Below are positions 379 through 20,761 of a stretch of 39,667 nt of DNA, in pieces. Numbering within the stretch: position 1 is the first letter of the stretch; each line of letters opens with the position of its first letter. The notes under the pieces were generated by a model. It made no database searches and was not told the origin of the DNA. It worked only from the letters and a program-made list of their open reading frames with translations. Source of the stretch: Clostridiaceae bacterium (GTDB taxonomy: Bacteria; Bacillota; Clostridia; Saccharofermentanales; DTU023). The position numbers and the translations under genes were made by a program. The stretch lies in assembly GCA_012838355.1 (NCBI GenBank), contig DUPJ01000022.1, forward strand, positions 1 to 39,667, in the 5' to 3' direction.

Positions 379-386
379 CGTTGCCG

Positions 387-809
387 ATGTCAAGCGATAA
401 CAACAAAAACGCGCCGCGTTTTATCAGCCGCCGGGACTTTCTGATTTTGGCGGTCATCCTTGTGTTTGCACTCGTCTGGTTTTTCTCGGCGAGATCTGTA
501 CCTGCCGATGTGTCGACTCAGGCAGTGATTACGATTGATCAGGTTGAGGTCGCCCGCATTGATTTAAAGGCCGGTGAACCGGAGGCATTTTCATTTTCCG
601 AGCGGCCTGCCGTGCATTTTCAGCGCTACGAGGACGGATCGTTTGCGTTTGTAGAATCGGATTGTCCGGATAAAGTGTGTATTCGGGCCGGTAAGCTGAA
701 GATGCCGTATCACTATGCGGCATGTTTGCCGAATCTGGTCGTTGTTACGATAGAAACTGTTGGCGGCGCACCGACGGAGTCGATGCCGGAGGTGGATTTT
801 GTCTACTAA
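387..809 (+). CDS. NusG domain II-containing membrane-anchored protein (EetA-like)
   Basis: This 140-residue protein has one membrane segment near residues 16-35 after a basic N terminus, then an extracytoplasmic domain. The cysteine pattern CPDKVC (Cys93 and Cys98) followed by ACLPN (Cys113) is typical of the NusG_II family, which is unrelated in role to transcription factor NusG. Members of this family sit beside Gx-type membrane proteins, FMN-binding proteins and ApbE; I recall EetA of the Listeria flavin-based electron-transfer locus as one of them. The gene overlaps the next one by 11 bp, so they are translationally coupled. A TTG two codons upstream (381) is an alternative start, but the ATG fits the leaderless promoter. 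A role in passing electrons across the membrane is inferred from context. Confidence 0.72.
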   Translation: MSSDNNKNAPRFISRRDFLILAVILVFALVWFFSARSVPADVSTQAVITIDQVEVARIDLKAGEPEAFSFSERPAVHFQRYEDGSFAFVESDCPDKVCIRAGKLKMPYHYAACLPNLVVVTIETVGGAPTESMPEVDFVY

Positions 810-1398
810 TAAACCTACATTGTCATCCCATCAGACGATACGCAAGCTGACCATGACGGCCATCCTGTTTGCCATGGCGCTGGCATTGTCGTTGTTTGAA
901 TCGCTGCTGCCGCCCATTCCGTCTCCCGTTCCGTTGAAATACGGACTTTCGAATCTGGCCGTGATGTATGCGCTGTTCTTTCTGGGGCCGAAGCCGGCGT
1001 TTACGATTGCCGTGCTGAAGAGCACCTTCGTGATTATGACGCGCGGGCTTTTTGCCGGGCTTGTCAGCATGGGCGGCGGCCTGATGTCGGTTCTCGTGAT
1101 GTTTGTTCTGTATCAGATATCTAAACGCCGCATGTCCTATCTGCTGATTTCGGTCAGCGGTGCGATCTTCCATAATGCCGGCCAGCTATTTGTGGCGATG
1201 ATCATTTTGCAGCTTCCTCTGGCTTTCGGGTACATCATCCCGCTGATGGCGCTGACTGGCGTCGGTACAGGCATTCTGTCGGCCGTTTTGCTGAAGCTGA
1301 TTATTCCGGCGCTGGCCGCGATTCCGGGGCAGAGGATCTGGATGACGTTTGATGCCTCGTCGGATCACGATCAAGAGAGCAAAAACGGGAAGTTATAA
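799..1398 (+). CDS. Gx transporter family membrane protein (EetB-like; Hpre_diP_synt_I family)
   Basis: This 199-residue protein is made of five or six hydrophobic segments, with a hallmark N-terminal block PPIPSPVPLKYGLSNL and a MGGGLMS motif near residue 90. It belongs to the family once called heptaprenyl diphosphate synthase component I and now Gx transporter; EetB of flavin-based electron transfer is, as I recall, of this family. I chose the TTG at 799 because a strong GGAGGTGG Shine-Dalgarno lies at 788-795 and the start overlaps the end of the NusG_II gene; the longer frame from 760 would begin inside that gene with no ribosome site. The pairing with the NusG_II protein is conserved and suggests a membrane complex. 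Its exact activity (electron or quinone/flavin transfer) is not settled. Confidence 0.72.
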   Translation: MSTNKPTLSSHQTIRKLTMTAILFAMALALSLFESLLPPIPSPVPLKYGLSNLAVMYALFFLGPKPAFTIAVLKSTFVIMTRGLFAGLVSMGGGLMSVLVMFVLYQISKRRMSYLLISVSGAIFHNAGQLFVAMIILQLPLAFGYIIPLMALTGVGTGILSAVLLKLIIPALAAIPGQRIWMTFDASSDHDQESKNGKL

Positions 1399-1662: not shown

Positions 1663-3702
1663 ATGTCAAGAAGAAAACTATTAGTGGCACTCTTTTTATG
1701 TGTGGCGCTTGCACTCGGATCGACGAGTGTCCTCTTAGCGGAGTCGAACACCTTCGAGGGAACAGGCCATGGCATGCAAGGCCCTATTACGGTCAGCATC
1801 AGTGTCGAAGAAGGCGAAATCACCGGGATTGAATTTCTGGAGTACTACGAAACGCCTAATATTGCGGCAGTAGCCAAAGAACGCATCCCGGAGTTGATTA
1901 TCGAACATCAGGCACTGGGGCTGGATGCAGTTGCAGGAGCGACGCTTACAAGCTTCGGCATTTTGAATGCGGTGGCCGATGCTGCGGAAAAAGCCGGCCT
2001 GGATGTAAAGGCGCTGCGAGACAATAAATACGCTCCAGAGCCTCAGGCAGACCAGACGTGGTCTGCGGATGTCCTGGTCATTGGCGGGGGAGGTGCCGGG
2101 TTTTCCGCAGCCGTTACCGCAGCACAGCAAGGTGCGGACGTCATTTTGATTGAAAAAGGCTCGGTCCTTGGCGGCAATACACTGGTAGCCGGGGCGGCTT
2201 ACAATGCCGTCGATCCTGATGCGCAATCTCACATGATCCTTTCGAGCGCACAAAGAGATACCATGAACAGCTATCTCGCCATGAACGAGTCAGATCCTGA
2301 ATTGATGCTGGATGAGCATCCTGAATGGACGCAGGTTCTGAACCAGGTTCAGGCCGACATCACTGAGTATTTTGAGGCAAATGAAGACAAAACCGTTGGT
2401 GAAGATGCGCCTGGCTTTGATTCAATTGCCATGCACATGTGGCAAATATACATTGGCGGGTTAAGACAGCTGAATGACGGATCGTGGATTGCCTCAAACT
2501 ATGACCTGGCAAAGGTTCTCGCGGAGCAGGCATTGCCTTCTCTGGAATGGATGGGAACGGTTGGGCTAAATCCAACGTATGGTGATGAGACGGCGGAAAG
2601 AGGACTGACAACAGTGCTTGGTGCCATGTGGCCGCGCACCCATTCTTTTATGTCAGGGGCAGAACGTATTCCGCAGCTGGCAAAAATCGCTGAAGAATTC
2701 AATGTCCAGATTTACACGGAAACAAGCGGAACTGCATTGCTGACCGATGAAGACGGCAGGGTCGTCGGCGCAAAAGCGGTAATGGCAGACGGTACCGAGA
2801 TTACCATTAATACATCAAAAGGCGTTGTTCTTGCCACGGGCGGATACTGCGCCAATCCAGGCATGGTTAAGGAATACGATATGTATTGGGGCGAGGACCT
2901 TTCGGACCGGACCTTATCTACAAATATGGGAACCAATGAGGGTGATGGCATCCTCATGGCAATGGAAGCTGGTGCGGATGTAACCGGTATGGAAATCGCC
3001 CAGATGATGCCTTCGTCCTCTCCCGTCAAAGGCACAATGACTGACGGTATGTGGGGCGATGCTTCCGAACAGATCTGGATTGATGGCCACGGCAATCGTT
3101 TCGTGAACGAGTATGCGGAACGCGATGTGCTGGCAAAAGCGTCACTGGCACTTGAAGATGGCATTTTCTACATCATTTACGCCGGCAGAGGTGAGCGGAA
3201 CAATCCGACGCAGCTGCTCACAGGTACCGAGTTGAATGAATGGGTAAAACCAATGGTGGAAAATGGCCATGTCTGGGCCGGATCAACGCTGGCTGAATTG
3301 GCTGAAGCAACGAAAACACCTGCCGCAGGCGTTGCACCGGCGTTCACAGAAGAAGCCCTGCGGGCCACTATTGAAAGATACAATGAATTTGTCATGAATC
3401 AGCATGATGACGATTTTGGCAGAGAAGTAATCGCCGGCGGGATCGATCTTGAAACGTTCGAGGCTGATCCTGACACGTACATTTTTATCAGCCCTAGGAA
3501 ATCGTCACTTCACCACACTATGGGTGGCGTCGTAATTGATACTGACACACGCGTCCTGCGCGCCGATGGATCGCCGATCGAAGGCCTGTGGGCAGCTGGC
3601 GAAGTCACCGGTGGCATTCATGGAGGCAATCGCCTTGGCGGCAATGCAATCGCTGACATCTTCACATTTGGTCGGATTGCCGGGATGAATGCTGTCGAGT
3701 AA
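1663..3702 (+). CDS. Secreted FMN-binding/FAD-dependent reductase (fumarate/urocanate reductase-like flavoprotein)
   Basis: The 679-residue protein begins with a Sec signal peptide (residues 1-26, basic start then a long hydrophobic run). Residues about 30-112 form an FMN-binding domain with DAVAGATLTS at 88-97; Thr94 is the expected site of covalent FMN attachment by ApbE. From residue 135 a FAD_binding_2 flavoprotein follows, with the dinucleotide motif GGGGAG at 141-146, RFVNEYAERD at 479-488 and HHTMGG at 617-622, both matching the active-site regions of soluble fumarate reductases, and a C-terminal FAD loop rich in Gly. There is no haem domain. Known relatives reduce fumarate, urocanate or other alkenes outside the membrane as terminal electron acceptors; the substrate here cannot be read from sequence. 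The start has a GAGGAGG ribosome site at 1646-1652. A terminator follows. Confidence 0.88.
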   Translation: MSRRKLLVALFLCVALALGSTSVLLAESNTFEGTGHGMQGPITVSISVEEGEITGIEFLEYYETPNIAAVAKERIPELIIEHQALGLDAVAGATLTSFGILNAVADAAEKAGLDVKALRDNKYAPEPQADQTWSADVLVIGGGGAGFSAAVTAAQQGADVILIEKGSVLGGNTLVAGAAYNAVDPDAQSHMILSSAQRDTMNSYLAMNESDPELMLDEHPEWTQVLNQVQADITEYFEANEDKTVGEDAPGFDSIAMHMWQIYIGGLRQLNDGSWIASNYDLAKVLAEQALPSLEWMGTVGLNPTYGDETAERGLTTVLGAMWPRTHSFMSGAERIPQLAKIAEEFNVQIYTETSGTALLTDEDGRVVGAKAVMADGTEITINTSKGVVLATGGYCANPGMVKEYDMYWGEDLSDRTLSTNMGTNEGDGILMAMEAGADVTGMEIAQMMPSSSPVKGTMTDGMWGDASEQIWIDGHGNRFVNEYAERDVLAKASLALEDGIFYIIYAGRGERNNPTQLLTGTELNEWVKPMVENGHVWAGSTLAELAEATKTPAAGVAPAFTEEALRATIERYNEFVMNQHDDDFGREVIAGGIDLETFEADPDTYIFISPRKSSLHHTMGGVVIDTDTRVLRADGSPIEGLWAAGEVTGGIHGGNRLGGNAIADIFTFGRIAGMNAVE

Positions 3703-4249: not shown

Positions 4250-6433
4250 TTAATCCTGCAGACCCGCCTCGGCCATGGCAGCTGTCAGTGCTTCCAGAAA
4301 GGCTTCACTCGAAACCGTTGCACCTGAAATGGCATCCAGATCCGCACTTTGTTGTTCCAGTGCCTGCTGAATCAGTTCTTCCATGGCAACATCACCGATA
4401 CCTGCCGTCTCCTCACTCTTTGACACGACAATGGCAACCATTTCTCCGTCAGAGACGGTGACTTCAATCGCGATCGGTCCATACAGGCCATTTTGCGAAA
4501 TGGCGCTGAACACTTCACCTTCAACTGCATCACTTTCAGTTTCAACTTCGGGAGATATCTCTTCCTCTTCTTCCAGCCCCCCAAAATAGATGTCATTGGA
4601 CATTAATTCGAGCGGGCTGATTTCAACTTCCTTTGTTCCGGCGAATTCCGGATTCAGCTCAGTGCTGGCCGTTGCCATACCATTCTCATCGACTGATGCT
4701 GCGGATCTGCCCGCGATATAGCCGCTTGTCATAACACGGCCGAAACCATGAATACGCATGCCCGCACTGCTCTCGCCACAGGCAAAGAGACCGGGAATCA
4801 GTTCACCGTGGATGTCATATACCTGCATGTTTCCGGCGACACGAAGTCCGGCATAGGTATCATGCAGATTGGGTGTTGCCCAGGCAGCGTAGAACGGGCC
4901 ATTTTCAATCTTATAGCCGAGCGTCTTTTTGCCCCAGTCTTCGTCGACACCAGCTTCAACAAACGAGTTGTAGCGTTCCACTGTTTCGACCAGAATCTCG
5001 GGATCCATCTTTACATCTTCGTAATATTTGTTGACGACCAGTTCTGCAAGCTCTTCCAGCGTGTCTGCCTTGAAGCAATAACCGTTATCGTAGTCGACGA
5101 TGCCCTGCTCCATTGCATATTCATTGCGGTCCACCGCATCCTGATCAAAGATCGCCCAGAGCGGTCCACCGACACGGCGTGCATTGCCGTCGCCTTCTTC
5201 ATCGATGACGACACTTTGAAGAGCCGTATTAAAGTATTCGTAACTGTCATACGAGTACTTTCCGCCAGCGCCTTTATCCTCGTTGCCCGGGCGGTTTCCC
5301 AGCATGTTGACAACAATCATGCTGTCGTAATCCGGCGAGATGCCGTTCGCTACGACCAGGGGCCAGATCTTGCTTTCTTCTGTGTATCCGCCGCCATAGC
5401 CGTAACGGCAACCGAAACGGTTTGCCATCGTAATCTGATGACCGCCGTGCTGCATGAACGCAGCAAGGCTTCCGAGGGAGGCGCCGACTTCCATCGCGGC
5501 CAGTTCGCCAGAAGCATCTTGGTCAGAGAACGGCATTCCCGATAATCCGTCATATTCGGGGCCAAGGCGGGGGTCAAACATGGTGCGGTACCATACGTTG
5601 CCGATGCCGCCGCCGGTAGCGATGACCACACCTTTATTGGCTTTGACTGAGACATTTTCTCTGGTTTCCTCAATGTTTCCATCATCCCAATGTGATTTGA
5701 GCGGCTCTGTCTCACCCGGTAAAATGGTTGGCGTATAGCTTGCTTCAACACCGAGCACACGACCGCTTGCACCGCCTTCGCGGAAAATCGTGTCCATGTG
5801 GTAGTTCATTAAGAACAAAGCGCCCTGATCGCGAAGTGAGCGCTCGAGTGGACGAGTTACGCCAAGACCTGCGGAACCGCGTCCCGACACGTCATCGACG
5901 ATTCCCTCAGCATCCGTATATGTCCAGCGCGGTACACTTTCCGGCTCGGTAAAACCGTCCAGAATGTAGTTTTGCTGTGTCGGTTCTGTATCGCGCAATT
6001 TCAGACCATTATCCAGAAAAAATGCGAACGCTTCCGCCATGCTGTTGGCGACCGAACGGACCACTTCCGTATCATTCAAACGGGTAGCCAGTGTGATACC
6101 ACTCGTGTGATCCACATAGTACTGGTCGGCTGAATCTTCAATGCCATACTCTGCCTGAATCTCTGTTCCTGCACCGCTGTGAAGATTGCCGCCGCTGACG
6201 GCCGCGTGCCCGCCAACTTCCCAATTGGCTTCCACCAGGATGACGGAGGCTCCGGCCTCCATTGCTTTCAATGCTGCCGGTAAACCGGATCCGCCGGCTC
6301 CGATTACAACGACGTCCGCTTCATAGTCCCATTGTGGTTCGTCTTCTGCTGCGTACAGGCTGATTCCCATCATGCTGACCAGAAGGGTCAGAATAAGTAG
6401 GAAACATCCTATACGCTTTTTTGTGTTTTTCAT
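4250..6433 (-). CDS. Secreted FAD-dependent reductase with C-terminal FMN-binding domain
   Basis: The 727-residue protein starts with a Sec signal peptide (residues 1-29). A FAD_binding_2 domain begins at about 38 (VVVIGAGGSG, 41-50) and closes near residue 600 with GESSAGMRIHGFGR, a fumarate reductase/ketosteroid dehydrogenase-like FAD loop. After an acidic linker near 625-645 (rich in Glu and Ser) comes a C-terminal FMN-binding domain ending in DAISGATVSS at 700-709, with Thr706 the likely covalent FMN site. Domain order is the reverse of the 1663 gene. The usual GxRFxNE active-site signature is altered to GNRPGNE, so the substrate probably differs. The start has AAGGAG 8 nt upstream. ApbE, encoded at 9910, would modify it after export. 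The substrate is unknown. Confidence 0.87.
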   Translation of the reverse strand: MKNTKKRIGCFLLILTLLVSMMGISLYAAEDEPQWDYEADVVVIGAGGSGLPAALKAMEAGASVILVEANWEVGGHAAVSGGNLHSGAGTEIQAEYGIEDSADQYYVDHTSGITLATRLNDTEVVRSVANSMAEAFAFFLDNGLKLRDTEPTQQNYILDGFTEPESVPRWTYTDAEGIVDDVSGRGSAGLGVTRPLERSLRDQGALFLMNYHMDTIFREGGASGRVLGVEASYTPTILPGETEPLKSHWDDGNIEETRENVSVKANKGVVIATGGGIGNVWYRTMFDPRLGPEYDGLSGMPFSDQDASGELAAMEVGASLGSLAAFMQHGGHQITMANRFGCRYGYGGGYTEESKIWPLVVANGISPDYDSMIVVNMLGNRPGNEDKGAGGKYSYDSYEYFNTALQSVVIDEEGDGNARRVGGPLWAIFDQDAVDRNEYAMEQGIVDYDNGYCFKADTLEELAELVVNKYYEDVKMDPEILVETVERYNSFVEAGVDEDWGKKTLGYKIENGPFYAAWATPNLHDTYAGLRVAGNMQVYDIHGELIPGLFACGESSAGMRIHGFGRVMTSGYIAGRSAASVDENGMATASTELNPEFAGTKEVEISPLELMSNDIYFGGLEEEEEISPEVETESDAVEGEVFSAISQNGLYGPIAIEVTVSDGEMVAIVVSKSEETAGIGDVAMEELIQQALEQQSADLDAISGATVSSEAFLEALTAAMAEAGLQD

Positions 6434-7023: not shown

Positions 7024-7064
7024 CGCTCTTGGTAAAAATACCACCCTCAGGAGGAACAACACAA

Positions 7065-9008
7065 ATGCAAAAAAAGGCAGCCCTGTTGCTGGCTTTGGCG
7101 ATGTTATTCTCCTGCCTGGCGCTGACCTCACCGGTCGCCCACGCAGAAGAAGCCGAAGCAAAGCTGGGTCTTGGCATCGTCACGGACGTGTCAGGTTCCA
7201 CGCCGGCAACCGCAGATGCAGAGGGTCGAGCGAAAGTGGACACGACGATTGTCGCTGTTCTGCTTGCCGCCGACGACACGATTGTCGATGTCAAAATCGA
7301 CACAGTACAGCCGTATACGTTTTTCAATTCGACTGGCGTTGTAACGGAGAAGAAAGATTTCCGCTCGAAACGCGAACTGAAAGACGACTACGGCATGATC
7401 GCAGCTTCGCAGATTGGCAAAGAATGGTACGAGCAGGCTGAAGCGCTCGAATCCTACATGATCGGCAAGACTGTTGCCGACGTGATGGCCATGGAAGTGA
7501 ACGAGGAATTCCGTCCGACCGATGCCGACCTCATGGCATCCGTCACCATTCATGTAGACACGTACCTGCTGGCCCTGGAAAAAGCCGTGCAGAATGCAGT
7601 AGCTCTGGGCAGCAAGGCGGACAATACGCTCGGTCTAGCCATTACGGCGAACAACAATCGTTCAGCCGATGCAGACGGTGAAACGGATGGCGTGGCACAG
7701 GCATACCTGCATGTCGCCGCAGCCAGTGTCGATGCGGACGGTGTGATCACCGCCGCGGTCATTGACGCGCTTCAGCCGACTGTCACGTTCGATGCAGAAG
7801 GTCAGATCACGTCAGATGTAGCGGCCGAAGTCAAAACCAAGAACGAACTCGGTGCCGATTACGGCATGGTTAATGCTTCCGGCATTCAGAAAGAGTGGTA
7901 TGAGCAGGCCAGCGCCTTTGCCCAGTATGCCGTCGGAAAGACGAAGGCTGAGCTGGAGGCACTGCCCGTGGCAGACGGCAAAACGACTGATGCCGATCTG
8001 CTCGCTTCTGTGACCGTGACCGTGACCGACATGCAGACAGCCATGATGAAAACAGTGGATGACGCGGTCAGTATGACTTCCGGCGTCAAAACCGGTCTGG
8101 CCGTTTTAACCTCGATTGCAGGCTCAGCATCTGCGGACGGTGAAACAGACGGGCGTGCCAAAGTGGACATCACGATGGTCGCTGTTCTCGTTGACGAAGA
8201 CGGTACCATTCTCGATTTCAAGCTTGACTTCCTGCAGCCCTACACAAGCTGGGATGCTGAAGGACACGTGATTGAGAAGAAAGAATTCAAGACAAAGCGC
8301 GAGCTCGGTGACGACTATGGCATGCGTGCCGCATCGGCCATCGGTCTTGAATGGTATGAGCAGGCAGACGCATTTGAGCAGTACGTCATCGGCAAAACGC
8401 TGGAAGATGTTCTCGCCTTAGAACTGGACGAAGAATACCGCCCGGCTGACGTCGATCTGGCGGCATCCGTTACGATTCATGTCGATAGCTATGTGGCGGC
8501 TCTGGAAAAAGCCGTGACGACAGCCAAGGTGCTCGGTGCCTCGGCAGAAGATGAGCTGGGACTCGGTGCGGTTGCGCATAACAACCGTTCTGCGGATGCC
8601 GGCGACGAGGATGGCCTGGCCGAATCGTACGTCCATTTCGGTGCCTTGACATTCAACACCGAAGGCATTGTGACCTCAGCCATCATCGATGCCAGCCAGG
8701 CTCGTGTGTCCTTTGATGCCGAAGGCAAGATCACGTCGGATATCACCGTGAATCCGCTGACGAAGCTGGAGCTCGGCGATGCATATGGCATGGCCATTGC
8801 ATCCGAAATCGGCAGGGAATGGCACGAACAGGCCGATGCGTACGCAGACTTCATCGTCGGCAAAACGCAGGACGAAGTGGTGACCCTGGTCAATAACGAT
8901 GGCAAGTCGGCGGATATCGACCTGTTTGCGCATGTCACCGTCACCATTGATGAAATGACGAAGATCGTGAGCAAAGGATACGAGGACGCATTTCTGGCGG
9001 TCCGCTGA
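7065..9008 (+). CDS. Secreted protein of four tandem ~155-residue repeats, FMN-binding-like
   Basis: The 647-residue product has a Sec signal peptide (residues 1-27, cleavage likely after AHA). The rest is four repeats starting near residues 34, 189, 343 and 498. Repeats 1 and 3 resemble each other most, as do 2 and 4. Each has DYGM or AYGM, then S/G-x-x-KEWYEQA-like and GKT motifs, and ends with DLxASVT followed by an amphipathic helix. That ending resembles the flavinylation motif of FMN-binding domains (DAVAGATLTS), with Ser in place of the modified Thr in repeats 1-3 and His in repeat 4. I infer a distant FMN-binding relative that carries several redox or binding units outside the cell; it could also be a structural repeat. 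The ATG at 7065 follows AGGAGG at 7049-7054. A strong terminator ends the gene. Confidence 0.8.
   Translation: MQKKAALLLALAMLFSCLALTSPVAHAEEAEAKLGLGIVTDVSGSTPATADAEGRAKVDTTIVAVLLAADDTIVDVKIDTVQPYTFFNSTGVVTEKKDFRSKRELKDDYGMIAASQIGKEWYEQAEALESYMIGKTVADVMAMEVNEEFRPTDADLMASVTIHVDTYLLALEKAVQNAVALGSKADNTLGLAITANNNRSADADGETDGVAQAYLHVAAASVDADGVITAAVIDALQPTVTFDAEGQITSDVAAEVKTKNELGADYGMVNASGIQKEWYEQASAFAQYAVGKTKAELEALPVADGKTTDADLLASVTVTVTDMQTAMMKTVDDAVSMTSGVKTGLAVLTSIAGSASADGETDGRAKVDITMVAVLVDEDGTILDFKLDFLQPYTSWDAEGHVIEKKEFKTKRELGDDYGMRAASAIGLEWYEQADAFEQYVIGKTLEDVLALELDEEYRPADVDLAASVTIHVDSYVAALEKAVTTAKVLGASAEDELGLGAVAHNNRSADAGDEDGLAESYVHFGALTFNTEGIVTSAIIDASQARVSFDAEGKITSDITVNPLTKLELGDAYGMAIASEIGREWHEQADAYADFIVGKTQDEVVTLVNNDGKSADIDLFAHVTVTIDEMTKIVSKGYEDAFLAVR
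7164..9005 (+). repeat. Four in-frame tandem repeats (ABAB arrangement)
   Basis: Unit boundaries are near 7164, 7629, 8091 and 8556, giving unit lengths of 465, 462, 465 and about 450 bp. Units 1 and 3 share VDxTxVAVL and a QPYT block, while units 2 and 4 share NNRSADA and a VxFDAEGxITSD block. This suggests duplication of a two-domain unit, itself formed by an older duplication. Confidence 0.85.
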
Positions 9009-9031: not shown

Positions 9032-9063
9032 AGCAAGGCCGCCCGCGGGCGGCCTTGCTGTTT
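9032..9063 (+). terminator. Strong intrinsic terminator after the repeat protein
   Basis: A perfect 12-bp stem AGCAAGGCCGCC (9032-9043) with GGCGGCCTTGCT (9048-9059) closes a CGCG loop and is followed by GTTT. The stem is symmetric and could also slow transcription from the opposite strand. Confidence 0.85.
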
Positions 9064-9213: not shown

Positions 9214-9717
9214 TCAGCGACCTTTCTGCAGACGGCCGGCAACACCGGATGCGTGCATGGTCTTATATAGGAAATAAGCCATGAGGGCACCCAGAATGCC
9301 TTGGATGAGGTTGATGCCGAAACTGGTCAGGGCAACGGCTGCGCCATAGAGCACGGTCTCATAGAGAAAGTAGCCGGCTGCCATCAGTATGCCGCCTCCC
9401 AGGGCAGAGGGAAGGGGACGACGTGTTTTTTTGAAAAGGAACGCGGCCAGCCATCCGGCAAGTCCTTTGACGATGAGGGTGACGGGCGCGTAATGCGCAT
9501 AGCCGGATAGCAGGTCTGCCAGCATTGAACCGAGCCCGCCTGTGAGTGCTCCGGCCAGCTGGCCGAACAACAGAGACGAGGTCAGCAAGATGGCGTCGCC
9601 GAGATTGAAGTAACCGTGCACGGCCGGTATCGGAATCTGAATAACAATGGTGGCGATTGTTGTCAGGGCGATCATCAGGCTGACGAGGGTCAGCGTTCTG
9701 GCATCCGGTCTTCGCAT
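9214..9717 (-). CDS. ECF transporter S component, riboflavin-type family
   Basis: This 167-residue membrane protein has about five or six hydrophobic segments. The motifs HGYFNLGDAILL near residue 34 and GGLGSMLADLLSGY near 60, followed by a YAPVTLIVKGL block, are typical of the ECF riboflavin-type substrate-binding (S) component family. S components work with a shared energizing module (EcfT, EcfA, EcfA'), which is not in this window. The ATG at 9717 is preceded by GGGAGGG on the minus strand; the longer frame to 9807 lacks such a site. It is divergent from apbE, so it probably supplies flavin to the system, like FmnA-type proteins in flavin-based electron transfer. No FMN riboswitch is visible upstream. 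Another vitamin or precursor as substrate is possible. Confidence 0.75.
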   Translation of the reverse strand: MRRPDARTLTLVSLMIALTTIATIVIQIPIPAVHGYFNLGDAILLTSSLLFGQLAGALTGGLGSMLADLLSGYAHYAPVTLIVKGLAGWLAAFLFKKTRRPLPSALGGGILMAAGYFLYETVLYGAAVALTSFGINLIQGILGALMAYFLYKTMHASGVAGRLQKGR

Positions 9718-9763
9718 ATCACCCTCCCACGAACGTTCGGATCGATTTTTGCGATGCACATCC

Positions 9764-9792
9764 ACCATACACCGCATCAATGGCAAAGACAA
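9764..9792 (-). promoter_or_regulatory. Probable promoter of the ECF S component gene
   Basis: On the minus strand TTGTCT (complement of 9787-9792), a 17-bp spacer and TATGGT (complement of 9764-9769) lie about 47 nt before the ATG at 9717. The palindrome CGAACGTTCG (9730-9739) is in the resulting leader. Confidence 0.45.
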
Positions 9793-9863
9793 TTCGCCGG
9801 ATTCCATGCCCGATTCTTCTGCTGAAAACGTGTCTTTGCAGACAGTTCGCGAATCCGGTCCTG

Positions 9864-9909: not shown

Positions 9910-10998
9910 ATGTCATTTTATAAAAAACTCCTTGCCGCGCTGATGATAGCGGCCTTCCTGCTCCTGTCTGCCGCCTGTGCCACGACGCCGTCGGCATCGG
10001 CCGGGGCTCCGGAAGAAGCGAGCACCCTGACGCGCTACCGCACATCGTTCATCGGCGTATTTGATACGCTGACCACCGTCATTGGCTACGCGGAAGATGA
10101 GGAAACATTCAATGAATACTCGGCGTTTATCAAGGACAAGCTGACCTTTTATCACCGGCTGTTCAATACGTATGACGCCTTTGAGGGCGTGGTGAACCTG
10201 AAGGTGGTCAATGAGACGGCCGGCAGCGAACCGGTCAAAGTGGATCCGGAAATTATCGCACTGCTGAAGCAGAGCCTGAGGGCAAATGAGCTGAGCGGCG
10301 GCAATGTCAATGTTGCGTTCGGCGCCGTGCTGAAGATCTGGCATGAGTACCGCGAAACGGGTATCAACGCACCGGAGCGCGCGAGCGTCCCGGAACGATC
10401 CGATCTCGAAGCCGCCGCGTTGCATACGGATATTCGCGACATTGTGATCGATGAAGAGGCGTCAACCGTCTATTTTCGAGATCCGGACCTGCGTCTCGAT
10501 GTCGGTTCCGGTGCCAAAGGATATGCGACGGAGCAGGCGGCACTTCAGGTAGAGGCAATGGGACTGCGCTCGGCCGTTATTTCGGTTGGCGGCAACATCC
10601 GCACAATCGGGCGGCGGCCGGATTCGGATACACCCTGGCGCATCGGCATCCAGAATCCGGACAAAACGGTGGAAAATCAGGTGATTGAGATTCTGGCCGT
10701 CGAGGACATGTCCGTCGTGACATCGGGCGTGTACGAGCGTTACTATGAAGTGGACGGCGTGCGCTACCACCACATCATTGATCCGGAAACCCTGTTTCCC
10801 GAAAAAACATTCGATGCTGTGACGATTGTCACGCCGAGCTCAGCACTGGCGGACTCCTTTACAACGGCGCTTTTCAATATGGATCTGGAAGACGGCATGG
10901 CCCTGATTGAGTCGCTTGAAAACGCCGAAGCCATGTGGCTGACCGGTGACGAACGCCGAATGACGGACGGGTTCGACAGGCATATTGCGAAGGATTAG
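9910..10998 (+). CDS. apbE: FAD:protein FMN transferase (ApbE)
   Basis: This 362-residue enzyme transfers FMN from FAD to Thr (or Ser) in FMN-binding domains, outside the membrane. It has an N-terminal lipoprotein-like signal with Cys23 (LLSAAC; the -3 residue is Ser, less usual). Family motifs are present: GNVNVAFGAVLKIW near residue 130, DVGSGAKGYATEQAA near 200, ISVGGNIRTIGRRP, VTSGVYERYYE, HHIIDPET near 292 and ADSFTTALFNM near 315, the last two supplying metal and FAD contacts. The usual HxIDPxTG lacks its Gly. It is the expected maturation enzyme for the reductases at 1663 and 4250. It heads an operon, 3 bp before the binding-protein gene. GAGG lies just upstream of the ATG. Confidence 0.93.
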   Translation: MSFYKKLLAALMIAAFLLLSAACATTPSASAGAPEEASTLTRYRTSFIGVFDTLTTVIGYAEDEETFNEYSAFIKDKLTFYHRLFNTYDAFEGVVNLKVVNETAGSEPVKVDPEIIALLKQSLRANELSGGNVNVAFGAVLKIWHEYRETGINAPERASVPERSDLEAAALHTDIRDIVIDEEASTVYFRDPDLRLDVGSGAKGYATEQAALQVEAMGLRSAVISVGGNIRTIGRRPDSDTPWRIGIQNPDKTVENQVIEILAVEDMSVVTSGVYERYYEVDGVRYHHIIDPETLFPEKTFDAVTIVTPSSALADSFTTALFNMDLEDGMALIESLENAEAMWLTGDERRMTDGFDRHIAKD

Positions 10999-17806: not shown

Positions 17807-18437
17807 ACGGTCCGGAACGCGCCGCGTCCGCTTCGCCGCCTTTATGAGCTGGCTTGTCTCGGGGACGCTCAATTGCCTCTACCGGGTGCGCGTGAGCGGC
17901 ACGGCACATGTGCCGCAATCCGGTCCCTTTATCCTGATCGCAAACCACGGGCACGTATTTGACCCGCTGGTGATTCACCGCCATGTCGCGCCCTGGGTGC
18001 ACTGGGTGACTAAGCGGGAGCTTTTTGACAATCCCGTGATCCGCTTCGTTCTGCGCGGCGTCGGAACCATTCCGTTCAACCGCGAAAGTCTCGATGTCGC
18101 TGCACTGCGCACCATTATCCGGGTGGTGAAGGAGGATGGTGTCGTCGGGATTTTTCCGCAGGGCGGCCGCGTTGTTCCGGAAGATCGCGACCGCGTGCTG
18201 CCGAAGGAAGCCACGGCTCATCTGGCCAGACGGTTCAAACTGCCGATTGTGCCGGTGGCTGTCGCCAATGAATTTCGTCTTTTCGGGAAAACGCGTCCTC
18301 ATCTGATTTTCGGCCCGCCGTTTACGACCGATACCCTGAGTCTGAACGACGAAGCGGCGGCCGTTCAGATGATGCGCGTCGTTTACGCACTGATGGATCA
18401 GCCGTATTGCCCCGACTACGAGGTACCGCAGGCATGA
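17799..18437 (+). CDS. plsC: 1-acyl-sn-glycerol-3-phosphate acyltransferase (PlsC family)
   Basis: The 212-residue membrane-associated enzyme adds the second acyl chain to lysophosphatidate in phospholipid synthesis. The catalytic NHxxxxD motif appears as NHGHVFD near residue 49, the second motif as GTIPFNRES near 90 and the third as FPQGGR near 123 (usually FPEGTR; the Glu to Gln and Thr to Gly changes are notable but seen among such paralogues). The GTG start overlaps cmk by 8 bp; the stop overlaps the ispH-rpsA ATG in ATGA. Confidence 0.88.
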   Translation: MAERSGTRRVRFAAFMSWLVSGTLNCLYRVRVSGTAHVPQSGPFILIANHGHVFDPLVIHRHVAPWVHWVTKRELFDNPVIRFVLRGVGTIPFNRESLDVAALRTIIRVVKEDGVVGIFPQGGRVVPEDRDRVLPKEATAHLARRFKLPIVPVAVANEFRLFGKTRPHLIFGPPFTTDTLSLNDEAAAVQMMRVVYALMDQPYCPDYEVPQA

Positions 18438-20761
18438 ACATTACAGTGGCGCGCATCGCCGGTTTTTGTCCCGGCGTAAAAAGTGCCGTCGACACGGCTT
18501 ATCAGCTGGCCAGTGAAAGCGATCGTCCGGTCTATATGTACGGTGAGCTGGTCCACAACCCGGCCGTTGTTGCCGATCTTCAGGCGCAGGGAATCGGTCT
18601 CGCATTCGTTCCGGACGATATTCCCGAGCCGTCGACCGTCCTCATCCGGGCACACGGCGTAACGCCCGCAGAAATGCTGCAGCTCGAGGAGGCCGGCCAC
18701 ATTGTGGTGGACCGCACCTGCCCGTTCGTGGGACACATTCACCGGCTTGCAGCCAAAGCAAAAGCCGAGGGCAAGCAGATCATCATCACGGGCAGCAAAA
18801 CGCATCCGGAAGTCATCGGCGTGCTGGGACACGCAGGTGCAGACGCAATCGTCCTTTCTTCGGTGGAAGAAGCGGAAAACGCGACATTTGCAGACAATCA
18901 CTGTGTGCTTTTATCCCAAACGACATTTGCGAAATCAACGTGGAAAAAAATCAGCGAAATATTGCAACAAAAAATTGCATTGCTTGAGATCTTTGATACA
19001 ATATGTGGGACGACTGCGTCAAGACAGGACGAAGCTTCGCATTTGGCAGCTCAATCGGATGTTGTATTCGTGCTCGGTAGCCATTCGAGCTCAAATACGA
19101 GAAAGCTGGCTGAAGTAGCCGGAATGCATTGCGCCGAAACTTATCTTGTTGAACAGCCGGATCAGGTCAGGTCTATACTGTCAGGCCGGGAACCGGGACC
19201 GCTGAACATTGGCATCACTGCCGGCGCATCGACACCAGAACGCATGATCGGGGAGGTAATCCGCATAATGACAGAACAAGAAGGCTTAACAAACCAGCCT
19301 GAATCCATGGACCTGAACTTCGAGGAGTTCGTCGACAGCATTCCGCAGCTCAAGAAGGGCACCGTCGTGAAAGGCAATGTGATCCGCTACGACAGTGACT
19401 ATGTCTACGTGGATGTGAAGGACAAGTCAGAGGGAAGAATTCCCCTGTCGGAGTTTGGTTCGGATTTTGATCTGGAAGCCGCGGCGAACGATCATAGCGA
19501 AATCGAAGTTTATGTTCGTAATATCCGGAACACGGATCAGGGCAAAGAAATCAGCTTGTCCAAGTCGCGCGTCGACTACACGAAGGACAAGGAAATCGTC
19601 GAGCAGGCGTACAACGACAAGACGCCGCTCATGGTGCGCGTCAAGCATATCGTGAAGGACGGCCTCATCGCCGCCCATGGCCACATCGATATTTACGTGC
19701 ACCGCACACAGATTGAAACCCAGCCTGTAAAGGAACTGGAACCGTATCTCGGTCAATCGTTTGAGATTCTGGTCACACAGTTTGAACCGGACAAGAGACG
19801 ACTCCGGGTTGCCGGGTCACGCCGCACGCTTCTGCAGAAGGAACGCCGCCGCAAAGCAAACGAAATCTGGGCTTCCATGGAGGTCGGTGAGGAATACGAG
19901 GGAACGGTGCGCAATCTGACTGACTTCGGCGCCTTTGTCGATCTCGGCGGTGTTGACGGACTCGTTCACATCAGCGAACTGTCCTGGGGACGCATCAAGC
20001 ATCCTTCCGAAGTGGTCCAGGTCGGAGACAAAATTCCCGTCTTTGTGCGTGAATTCGATCCCGAGAAAAAGCGTGTATCGCTCGGCTACCGCAGAGCGGA
20101 AATGGATCCTTACAAGGATGTGGAAACCCGCTTCCCGGTGGGCTCGATTGTGCGCGGTATCATCGTTCGCATCTTCGCGTTCGGTGCTTTCATCGAGATC
20201 GACCCCGGTGTCGATGCGCTCTGCCACATTTCGCAGATCTCGGACTACCATCTGACGAAGCCGAATGAGGTTCTGGAAGTCGGCATGGAAGTGGATGCCC
20301 GTGTGCTCGAAGTATCAAATGAAGCGCGCCGCATCAGCGTCAGCATTCGCGACGTGGAGCCGATCAACCCGGTAAGGGATGAACCGCCGGCACGTTCGCG
20401 CCGCTCATCGCGGGATGAATTCAGTGATCTGCCGTCCAGCTACAGCGACACCAAATACAGCAGCAGCCTGGGCGACATCGCCACGTTCACGTCATTTGAC
20501 GCCGATCAGGACGATGCAGAAACGGAAGCGGCTGTTGAGGAAACGGCTGAAGAAGCGGTGGAAGCAAGCGTCGAAGAAACGGCTGAAGAATCGATTGAAG
20601 CGGCCGTTGACGAAGCGGTTGAGAATATTGCTGCAGACGTCGTCGAGGCGACGGAGACAGCAGACGAGACGGTGGAAGAAGCGGCCGAGGTCGAGGCGAT
20701 TACAGAACAAATCGAAGCGGCCGTACCGGATGAAGAGAATCCAGAGTCAGATCCCGTCTGA
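18434..20761 (+). CDS. ispH-rpsA: Bifunctional 4-hydroxy-3-methylbut-2-enyl diphosphate reductase / 30S ribosomal protein S1
   Basis: One 775-residue frame joins two proteins. Residues 1-280 are IspH, the last MEP-pathway enzyme; the iron-sulfur ligands Cys12, Cys96 and Cys191 and the substrate His41 (VHNP), His74 (RAHGV) and His124 (THPE) are all present. Residues about 300-640 hold four S1 RNA-binding domains, the third and fourth with the classic GAFVDLG...GLVHIS and GAFIEI...ALCHIS patterns. From 640 to the end is an acidic Ala/Glu/Val tail. Such fusions are known in Clostridia. Both halves look functional; whether the protein is cleaved is unknown. The start is in an ATGA overlap with plsC; a terminator follows. 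Confidence 0.96.
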   Translation: MNITVARIAGFCPGVKSAVDTAYQLASESDRPVYMYGELVHNPAVVADLQAQGIGLAFVPDDIPEPSTVLIRAHGVTPAEMLQLEEAGHIVVDRTCPFVGHIHRLAAKAKAEGKQIIITGSKTHPEVIGVLGHAGADAIVLSSVEEAENATFADNHCVLLSQTTFAKSTWKKISEILQQKIALLEIFDTICGTTASRQDEASHLAAQSDVVFVLGSHSSSNTRKLAEVAGMHCAETYLVEQPDQVRSILSGREPGPLNIGITAGASTPERMIGEVIRIMTEQEGLTNQPESMDLNFEEFVDSIPQLKKGTVVKGNVIRYDSDYVYVDVKDKSEGRIPLSEFGSDFDLEAAANDHSEIEVYVRNIRNTDQGKEISLSKSRVDYTKDKEIVEQAYNDKTPLMVRVKHIVKDGLIAAHGHIDIYVHRTQIETQPVKELEPYLGQSFEILVTQFEPDKRRLRVAGSRRTLLQKERRRKANEIWASMEVGEEYEGTVRNLTDFGAFVDLGGVDGLVHISELSWGRIKHPSEVVQVGDKIPVFVREFDPEKKRVSLGYRRAEMDPYKDVETRFPVGSIVRGIIVRIFAFGAFIEIDPGVDALCHISQISDYHLTKPNEVLEVGMEVDARVLEVSNEARRISVSIRDVEPINPVRDEPPARSRRSSRDEFSDLPSSYSDTKYSSSLGDIATFTSFDADQDDAETEAAVEETAEEAVEASVEETAEESIEAAVDEAVENIAADVVEATETADETVEEAAEVEAITEQIEAAVPDEENPESDPV

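Follow-up and report, generated by a model that had tools for sequence, protein, structure and literature searches.

A gene in a Clostridiaceae bacterium raises the question of whether a secreted, repeated protein that lacks the canonical Gly-Ala of the flavinylation motif carries covalent flavins and, if so, on which residue. It was considered here in the window, i.e. the whole 39,667-nucleotide stretch of DNA that was analysed, and in comparison with relatives in other genomes.

Gene, signals and repeat structure

The open reading frame extends from an ATG at 7065 to a stop codon at 9006-9008, and is associated with the following features:

7049..7054, + strand: Shine-Dalgarno sequence AGGAGG upstream of the ATG (sequence)
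7065..9008, + strand: four-domain FMN-bind2-type secreted protein, 647 aa (translation, repeat comparison, relatives)
7065..7145, + strand: predicted signal peptide, aa 1-27, cut after AHA, without convincing lipobox (read from the translation)
7158..7622, + strand: repeat 1, type A, aa 32-186 (repeat comparison; AlphaFold2 model of this repeat alone, pLDDT 94.8)
7623..8081, + strand: repeat 2, type B, aa 187-339 (repeat comparison; AlphaFold2 model of repeats 1 and 2, pLDDT 96.7, pTM 0.93)
8085..8549, + strand: repeat 3, type A, aa 341-495 (repeat comparison)
8550..9005, + strand: repeat 4, type B, aa 496-647 (repeat comparison)
9033..9058, + strand: GC-rich hairpin past the stop codon, possible terminator (sequence)

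The preliminary description had taken the product to be secreted, in agreement with the predicted signal peptide at the start of the translation, in which LFSC makes a poor lipobox and cleavage after AHA appears more likely. The segment 9045-9058 matches the terminator consensus, a kind of match which is overall little above shuffled expectation. Promoter-like matches in the window showed no excess over shuffled expectation, and an Rfam search of the window yielded no element at the gathering threshold, so that it contains no recognised FMN riboswitch.

The four repeats and their ABAB order, also noted previously, were confirmed by pairwise comparison. Identity is 59% between repeats 1 and 3 and 49% between repeats 2 and 4, versus 33-45% for the cross pairs, and the z-scores of 15-36 against shuffled sequence show that neither the repeats nor their order are due to chance. 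The protein, with repeats of 152-155 aa, is a duplicated A-B domain pair.

A scan of genome contigs provided a family set, with 80 loci taken of 136 relatives, almost all of them from Clostridia or other Firmicutes and including two-domain Erysipelotrichaceae proteins (L065, L075). Among the relatives that were split into repeats, two repeats were found in 80 proteins, four in 3 and six in 1, and some further relatives are apparently single-domain. The six-repeat protein (L101:1333-4260, 975 aa), from a genome of a sister or the same genus (G006), has its repeats in ABABAB order. In a tree of single repeats, repeats 1 and 3 of the window protein group with repeats 1, 3 and 5 of this relative, and repeats 2 and 4 with its repeats 2, 4 and 6 (supports 0.98 and 0.90), which indicates that multiplication of the A-B pair predates the divergence of the two species. 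In the same tree, L010 and L011 owe their four repeats to separate, more recent duplications. This history of A-B pairs agrees with a remark in the paper on FMN-bind2 domains that these occur in even numbers because two of them form one unit (PMC11334425). Within the taxonomic family of the source genome the gene has a patchy distribution, with matches in 5 of 38 genomes and 2 of 7 genera, which suggests loss or transfer. A search of plasmids gave a single record, a 2.6-Mb Acetoanaerobium entry typed as non-mobilizable, in which the match is without annotation.

Relation to FMN-binding domains and the predicted acceptor residue

Pfam FMN_bind (PF04205) has no match to the 647-aa protein at E <= 1, and a Pfam/NCBIfam search of this protein gave no family match of substance. 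Weak Pfam matches to Tudor_1_RapA, MmlI and RAP1, all below cut-off and covering fragments only, were set aside. The family profile matches PDB entry 2kzx at E 1.2e-8, and a single-repeat profile does so at 1e-7, in an alignment that pairs aasvT with DAISGAT. A weak match of the family profile to 8p2b (E 0.08) pairs the predicted acceptor threonine with Thr67, the residue carrying covalent FMN in the crystal (PMC10339131). Comparison by hhalign of the window family with 50 FMN_bind domains gave a score of 25.5 in the same register, against a mean of 10.9 and a maximum of 21.7 for 100 column-shuffled profiles. A profile of PplA-type domains scored 83.1 against the window family (null maximum 20.3) and 29.2 against FMN_bind (null maximum 16.4).

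Intermediate proteins display graded motifs in which the acceptor is kept, namely DAISGAS, DAVAGVT, DAVTGCT, DIAGVS and DTVASVS, and several of them pass or approach the Pfam FMN_bind cut-off. They include a two-domain protein with DAISGAS that matches 2kzx at E 1.7e-46 (L160), a three-domain protein with DIAGVS (L163), a single-domain protein with DAVAGVT that scores 28.5 bits with FMN_bind (cut-off 22) over nearly the whole profile (L164), and a protein with DAVTGCT at 22.4 bits (L165). In a protein of 518 aa (L166:7159-8715), a canonical FMN_bind domain is followed by three PplA-type domains with DTVASVS; its gene adjoins those for EetB and EetA. Canonical FMN_bind also stands ahead of two or four FMN-bind2 repeats in L010:7365-9746, L011:6795-9266 and L015:7536-8918. 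Judged by these profiles, the repeats are homologous to PplA-type and FMN_bind domains, and the descent from FMN-binding domains proposed in the preliminary description is thereby backed through PplA-type intermediates. In two further proteins, encoded near ABC transporters (L161:6299-7282 and L162:6237-7298), LysM precedes a single related domain with canonical DVTTGAT; these may be cell-wall-anchored flavin proteins.

Comparison with FMN_bind structures had also been suggested. A Foldseek search against the PDB returned no FMN_bind structure among the best 50 matches of either AlphaFold2 model, an outcome that does not speak for the FMN_bind fold, and the homology is carried by sequence profiles. 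The IscU-like matches, the best listed, were too poor to mean anything (TM about 0.3-0.46, rmsd 7-10). As assigned by eye, the elements of the model are a strand (2-10), a loop (11-22), two strands (23-36 and 42-50), an insert with short strands (51-70) and a helix (71-78). The helix said to follow the motif is seen in the models of repeats 1 and 2, where the last helix begins 4 residues past the acceptor threonine. The pTM of the two-repeat model is compatible with sheet-to-sheet packing of neighbouring domains.

The motifs near the ends of the repeats read as previously described, as DLxASVT with His in place of Ser in the fourth:

7527..7547, + strand: flavinylation-like motif 1, DLMASVT; predicted FMN acceptor Thr161, codon 7545-7547 (profile alignments, family alignment)
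7995..8015, + strand: motif 2, DLLASVT; predicted FMN acceptor Thr317, codon 8013-8015 (family alignment)
8454..8474, + strand: motif 3, DLAASVT; predicted FMN acceptor Thr470, codon 8472-8474 (family alignment)
8919..8939, + strand: motif 4, DLFAHVT; predicted FMN acceptor Thr625, codon 8937-8939 (family alignment)

The predicted acceptors are spaced by 156, 153 and 155 residues. ApbE places FMN on the last residue of the seven-residue motif Dxx[S/T]GA[S/T] (PMC12052999). Set against it letter for letter, DLxASVT has Asp at Asp, Ser at Gly, Val at Ala and Thr at the acceptor; only the Asp and the last Thr of the strict motif are kept, its [S/T], Gly and Ala being replaced in the four repeats by A, S or H, and V. 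In the family alignment (176 repeats from 84 loci) the acceptor column holds Thr in 141 and Ser in 35 repeats, with no exception, and is the sole column that is fully Ser/Thr. The flavinylation motif was no part of the peptide patterns of the family scan, so the scan does not account for this conservation. Lys, Tyr, E-W-x-E-Q and Gly-Lys are further invariant residues of the family, the invariance of EW-EQ being partly selected by the scan itself.

The preliminary description had raised the possibility of FMN on the serine of ASVT, which would leave repeat 4 empty and give a carrier of three flavins. A serine acceptor is chemically possible, and Ser is the commonest residue at this position (110 of 176 repeats, the others having Gly in 56, Thr in 5, Val in 3, His in 1 and Leu in 1; the following residue is mostly Val, in 113, or Cys, in 57). 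Yet the 56 repeats with Gly belong to the same family and have the same ApbE context, the position aligns with the Gly of SGAT in 2kzx, 8p2b and the FMN_bind and PplA-type profiles, and it is the next-but-one Thr/Ser that is invariant. We therefore reject serine as the acceptor, an assignment we consider scarcely credible: it reads the motif in the wrong register, the aligned acceptor being the final Thr in all four repeats. On these alignments, the terminal threonine of each motif is the most likely site of FMN. The His at the Gly position of repeat 4 is unique among the 176 repeats; since the acceptor Thr is kept, it does not remove the acceptor. Repeat 4 (8919-8939) may be the least flavinylated site.

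A different reading of the degenerate motif is that covalent flavin has been lost and that the adjoining flavoprotein reductases dock onto the secreted protein or use it as a scaffold, much as the earlier alternative of a scaffold evolved from FMN-binding domains had it. The replacement of the canonical GA, the missing Pfam FMN_bind match, and the fact that K, Y, E-W-x-E-Q and G-K are as invariant as the acceptor would all suit such a role. An unused acceptor should drift, though, and its retention as Ser/Thr in 176 of 176 repeats makes a scaffold without flavins unlikely. Substitutions by Val and Ala are moreover tolerated in a tested ApbE substrate: in this other protein, changing Gly to Ala or Ala to Val leaves about 50% flavinylation in each case, and changing the acceptor Thr to Ala abolishes it (PMC12052999).

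Gene context and proposed function

The gene is surrounded by others with predicted functions in flavin export, uptake and transfer, and also adjoins an amino-acid-type ABC transporter:

381..809, + strand: EetA-like protein (NusG_II; Pfam PF07009, E 1.5e-19)
760..1398, + strand: EetB-like FAD-export ECF-S protein (PF07456, E 1.8e-30)
1663..3702, + strand: FMN_bind + FAD_binding_2 reductase, fumarate-reductase-like, with canonical DAVAGAT (Pfam/NCBIfam)
4250..6433, - strand: FAD_binding_2 + FMN_bind reductase with canonical DAISGAT (Pfam/NCBIfam)
9214..9807, - strand: ECF riboflavin transporter S component, RibU-like (PF07155, E 7e-34)
9910..10998, + strand: ApbE flavin transferase (PF02424, E 4.5e-67)

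EetB is the FAD-export subunit in Listeria (PMC9973259). Elsewhere in the window, 18407-20761 encodes a fusion, already known (NF000907), of IspH with ribosomal protein S1-type domains.

Among relatives, an ApbE gene lies near 75 of 87 loci; of 77 loci examined, 68 have it downstream in the same orientation. The other neighbours in the 77 loci comprise EetB (35), EetA (27), Ndh2-like Pyr_redox_2 proteins (19), polyprenyl synthetase (19), UbiA (18) and Rnf subunits (11-17). These identities rest on a Pfam check of one representative per cluster, except for EetA, which was recognised by similarity to the NusG_II protein of the window. In the sister genus, EetA, EetB, the six-repeat relative and ApbE follow each other in uninterrupted order, and the acceptor position of the protein between EetB and ApbE is Thr in all six repeats. 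Homologues of the two reductases of the window occur near 2 of 87 loci only, and that ApbE is instead the most constant neighbour further weakens the case for a docking protein.

The adjoining RibU-type transporter and amino-acid-type ABC transporter could point to domains with a non-covalent ligand, be it free FMN, riboflavin or another small molecule, that serve capture or delivery of flavin rather than electron transfer, and a pocket for this ligand could be made up of the aromatic and charged residues among the invariant ones. Such a role is nevertheless very unlikely: RibU is found near 6 of 87 loci against 75 for ApbE, the acceptor residue is invariant, and the repeats of three relatives share their chain with a canonical FMN_bind domain.

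The reading that we favour, with a probability of roughly three in four, is that of a secreted tandem of four FMN-bind2 domains, loaded by ApbE with four covalent FMN and acting as an extracellular electron carrier; counterpoints are the absence of the canonical GA from all four motifs, the His of repeat 4 without counterpart in the family, the missing Pfam match and the Foldseek result. The neighbouring ApbE (9910-10998) would attach one FMN per motif, as a phosphoester to the last Thr, and would draw on FAD that EetB (760-1398) helps to export and on flavin imported through RibU. Once loaded, the protein would take electrons from a membrane donor and pass them, outside the membrane, to the adjoining reductases (1663-3702 and 4250-6433) or to other acceptors. 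We infer the covalent FMN on the four sites as well as the direction and partners of electron flow. The idea of a multi-flavin wire put forward in the preliminary description thus draws support from profile homology and from the ApbE and extracellular electron transfer context, once its serine acceptor is given up.

The electron donor is probably the Rnf complex of the own genome. This genome has two ApbE genes, including that of the window, and 17 FMN_bind matches, and the RnfG-like protein encoded in its Rnf cluster has four or more canonical FMN_bind domains; a multi-flavin RnfG has been described (PMC8238504). The RnfG-like gene (L100:1-1744, G000:C174) ends at a contig edge and adjoins those for RnfD and RnfC. 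In the assembly, which is 94% complete so that absences could reflect a gap, UbiA was not found and Ndh2 gave a weak match only, and Rnf, which is present, would be the likelier source of electrons.

It is tempting to generalise, in a proposal whose odds we regard as even, that FMN-bind2 proteins serve as substrates of ApbE through a relaxed motif, Dxx[AS][SG][VC][TS], which is missed by canonical-motif and Pfam searches; that A-B pairs have been multiplied into two-, four- and six-flavin carriers; and that in some Clostridia these are wired to Rnf and not to Ndh2 and demethylmenaquinone. If so, counts that rely on Pfam FMN_bind or the [S/T]GA[S/T] motif would underestimate multi-flavin carriers in Clostridia, including gut and rumen species. 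The family would then offer a natural motif series (SGAT, AGVT, TGCT, AGCT, ASVT) for the study of ApbE requirements, and its two-, four- and six-domain versions a series for electron transfer along a flavin chain.

Comparison with known systems

A known counterpart, PplA of the Listeria flavin-based extracellular electron transfer (FLEET) system, carries FMN on two Thr (PMC8906456) and is likewise a secreted protein with repeated FMN-accepting domains, encoded beside apbE (fmnB), eetA and eetB. The latter three genes are also clustered in the window and in the sister-genus locus L101, and in Lachnospiraceae and other relatives the gene lies, as in Listeria, beside Ndh2-, UbiA- and polyprenyl-synthetase genes. 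Unlike FLEET, the own genome gave no UbiA and no close Ndh2. Compared by description, PplA is a lipoprotein whose two sites (143 and 265) are separated by 122 residues, whereas the window protein has four predicted sites 153-156 residues apart and is without convincing lipobox.

Multi-flavinylated FMN_bind proteins (PMC8238504; SaFMN3 and CbFMN4, PMC10339131) similarly have several extracytosolic flavin-accepting domains and are encoded near apbE. Their domains are compact, of the FMN-bind1 type, recognised by Pfam and with canonical GAT/GAS, none of which applies to the window protein. The uncharacterized protein 2kzx shares the C-terminal half with EWxEQ and the motif in register, but is shorter, has canonical DAISGAT and is a PplA-type domain, as seen from its match to L160.

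The window protein fits the FMN-bind2 subtype described in 2024 in mSystems, whose authors aligned it with FMN-bind1 (PMC11334425). Our literature search found no experiment with covalent flavin on an FMN-bind2 domain or on the relaxed motif. According to the article text, FMN-bind2 domains are about 160 aa long, occur as two or four per protein, are treated as ApbE substrates, and differ from FMN-bind1 by insertions between beta1 and beta2 and between beta3 and alpha1. The length, both insertions and the even number of domains are all matched by the window protein, and the source of the published example, Erysipelotrichaceae, is also represented in the present family set. This text does not take up the relaxed DLxASVT motif, and the six-domain relative of the sister genus exceeds the published two or four. 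As far as comparison with this published description goes, the 647-aa protein is a four-domain member of the already described FMN-bind2 type.
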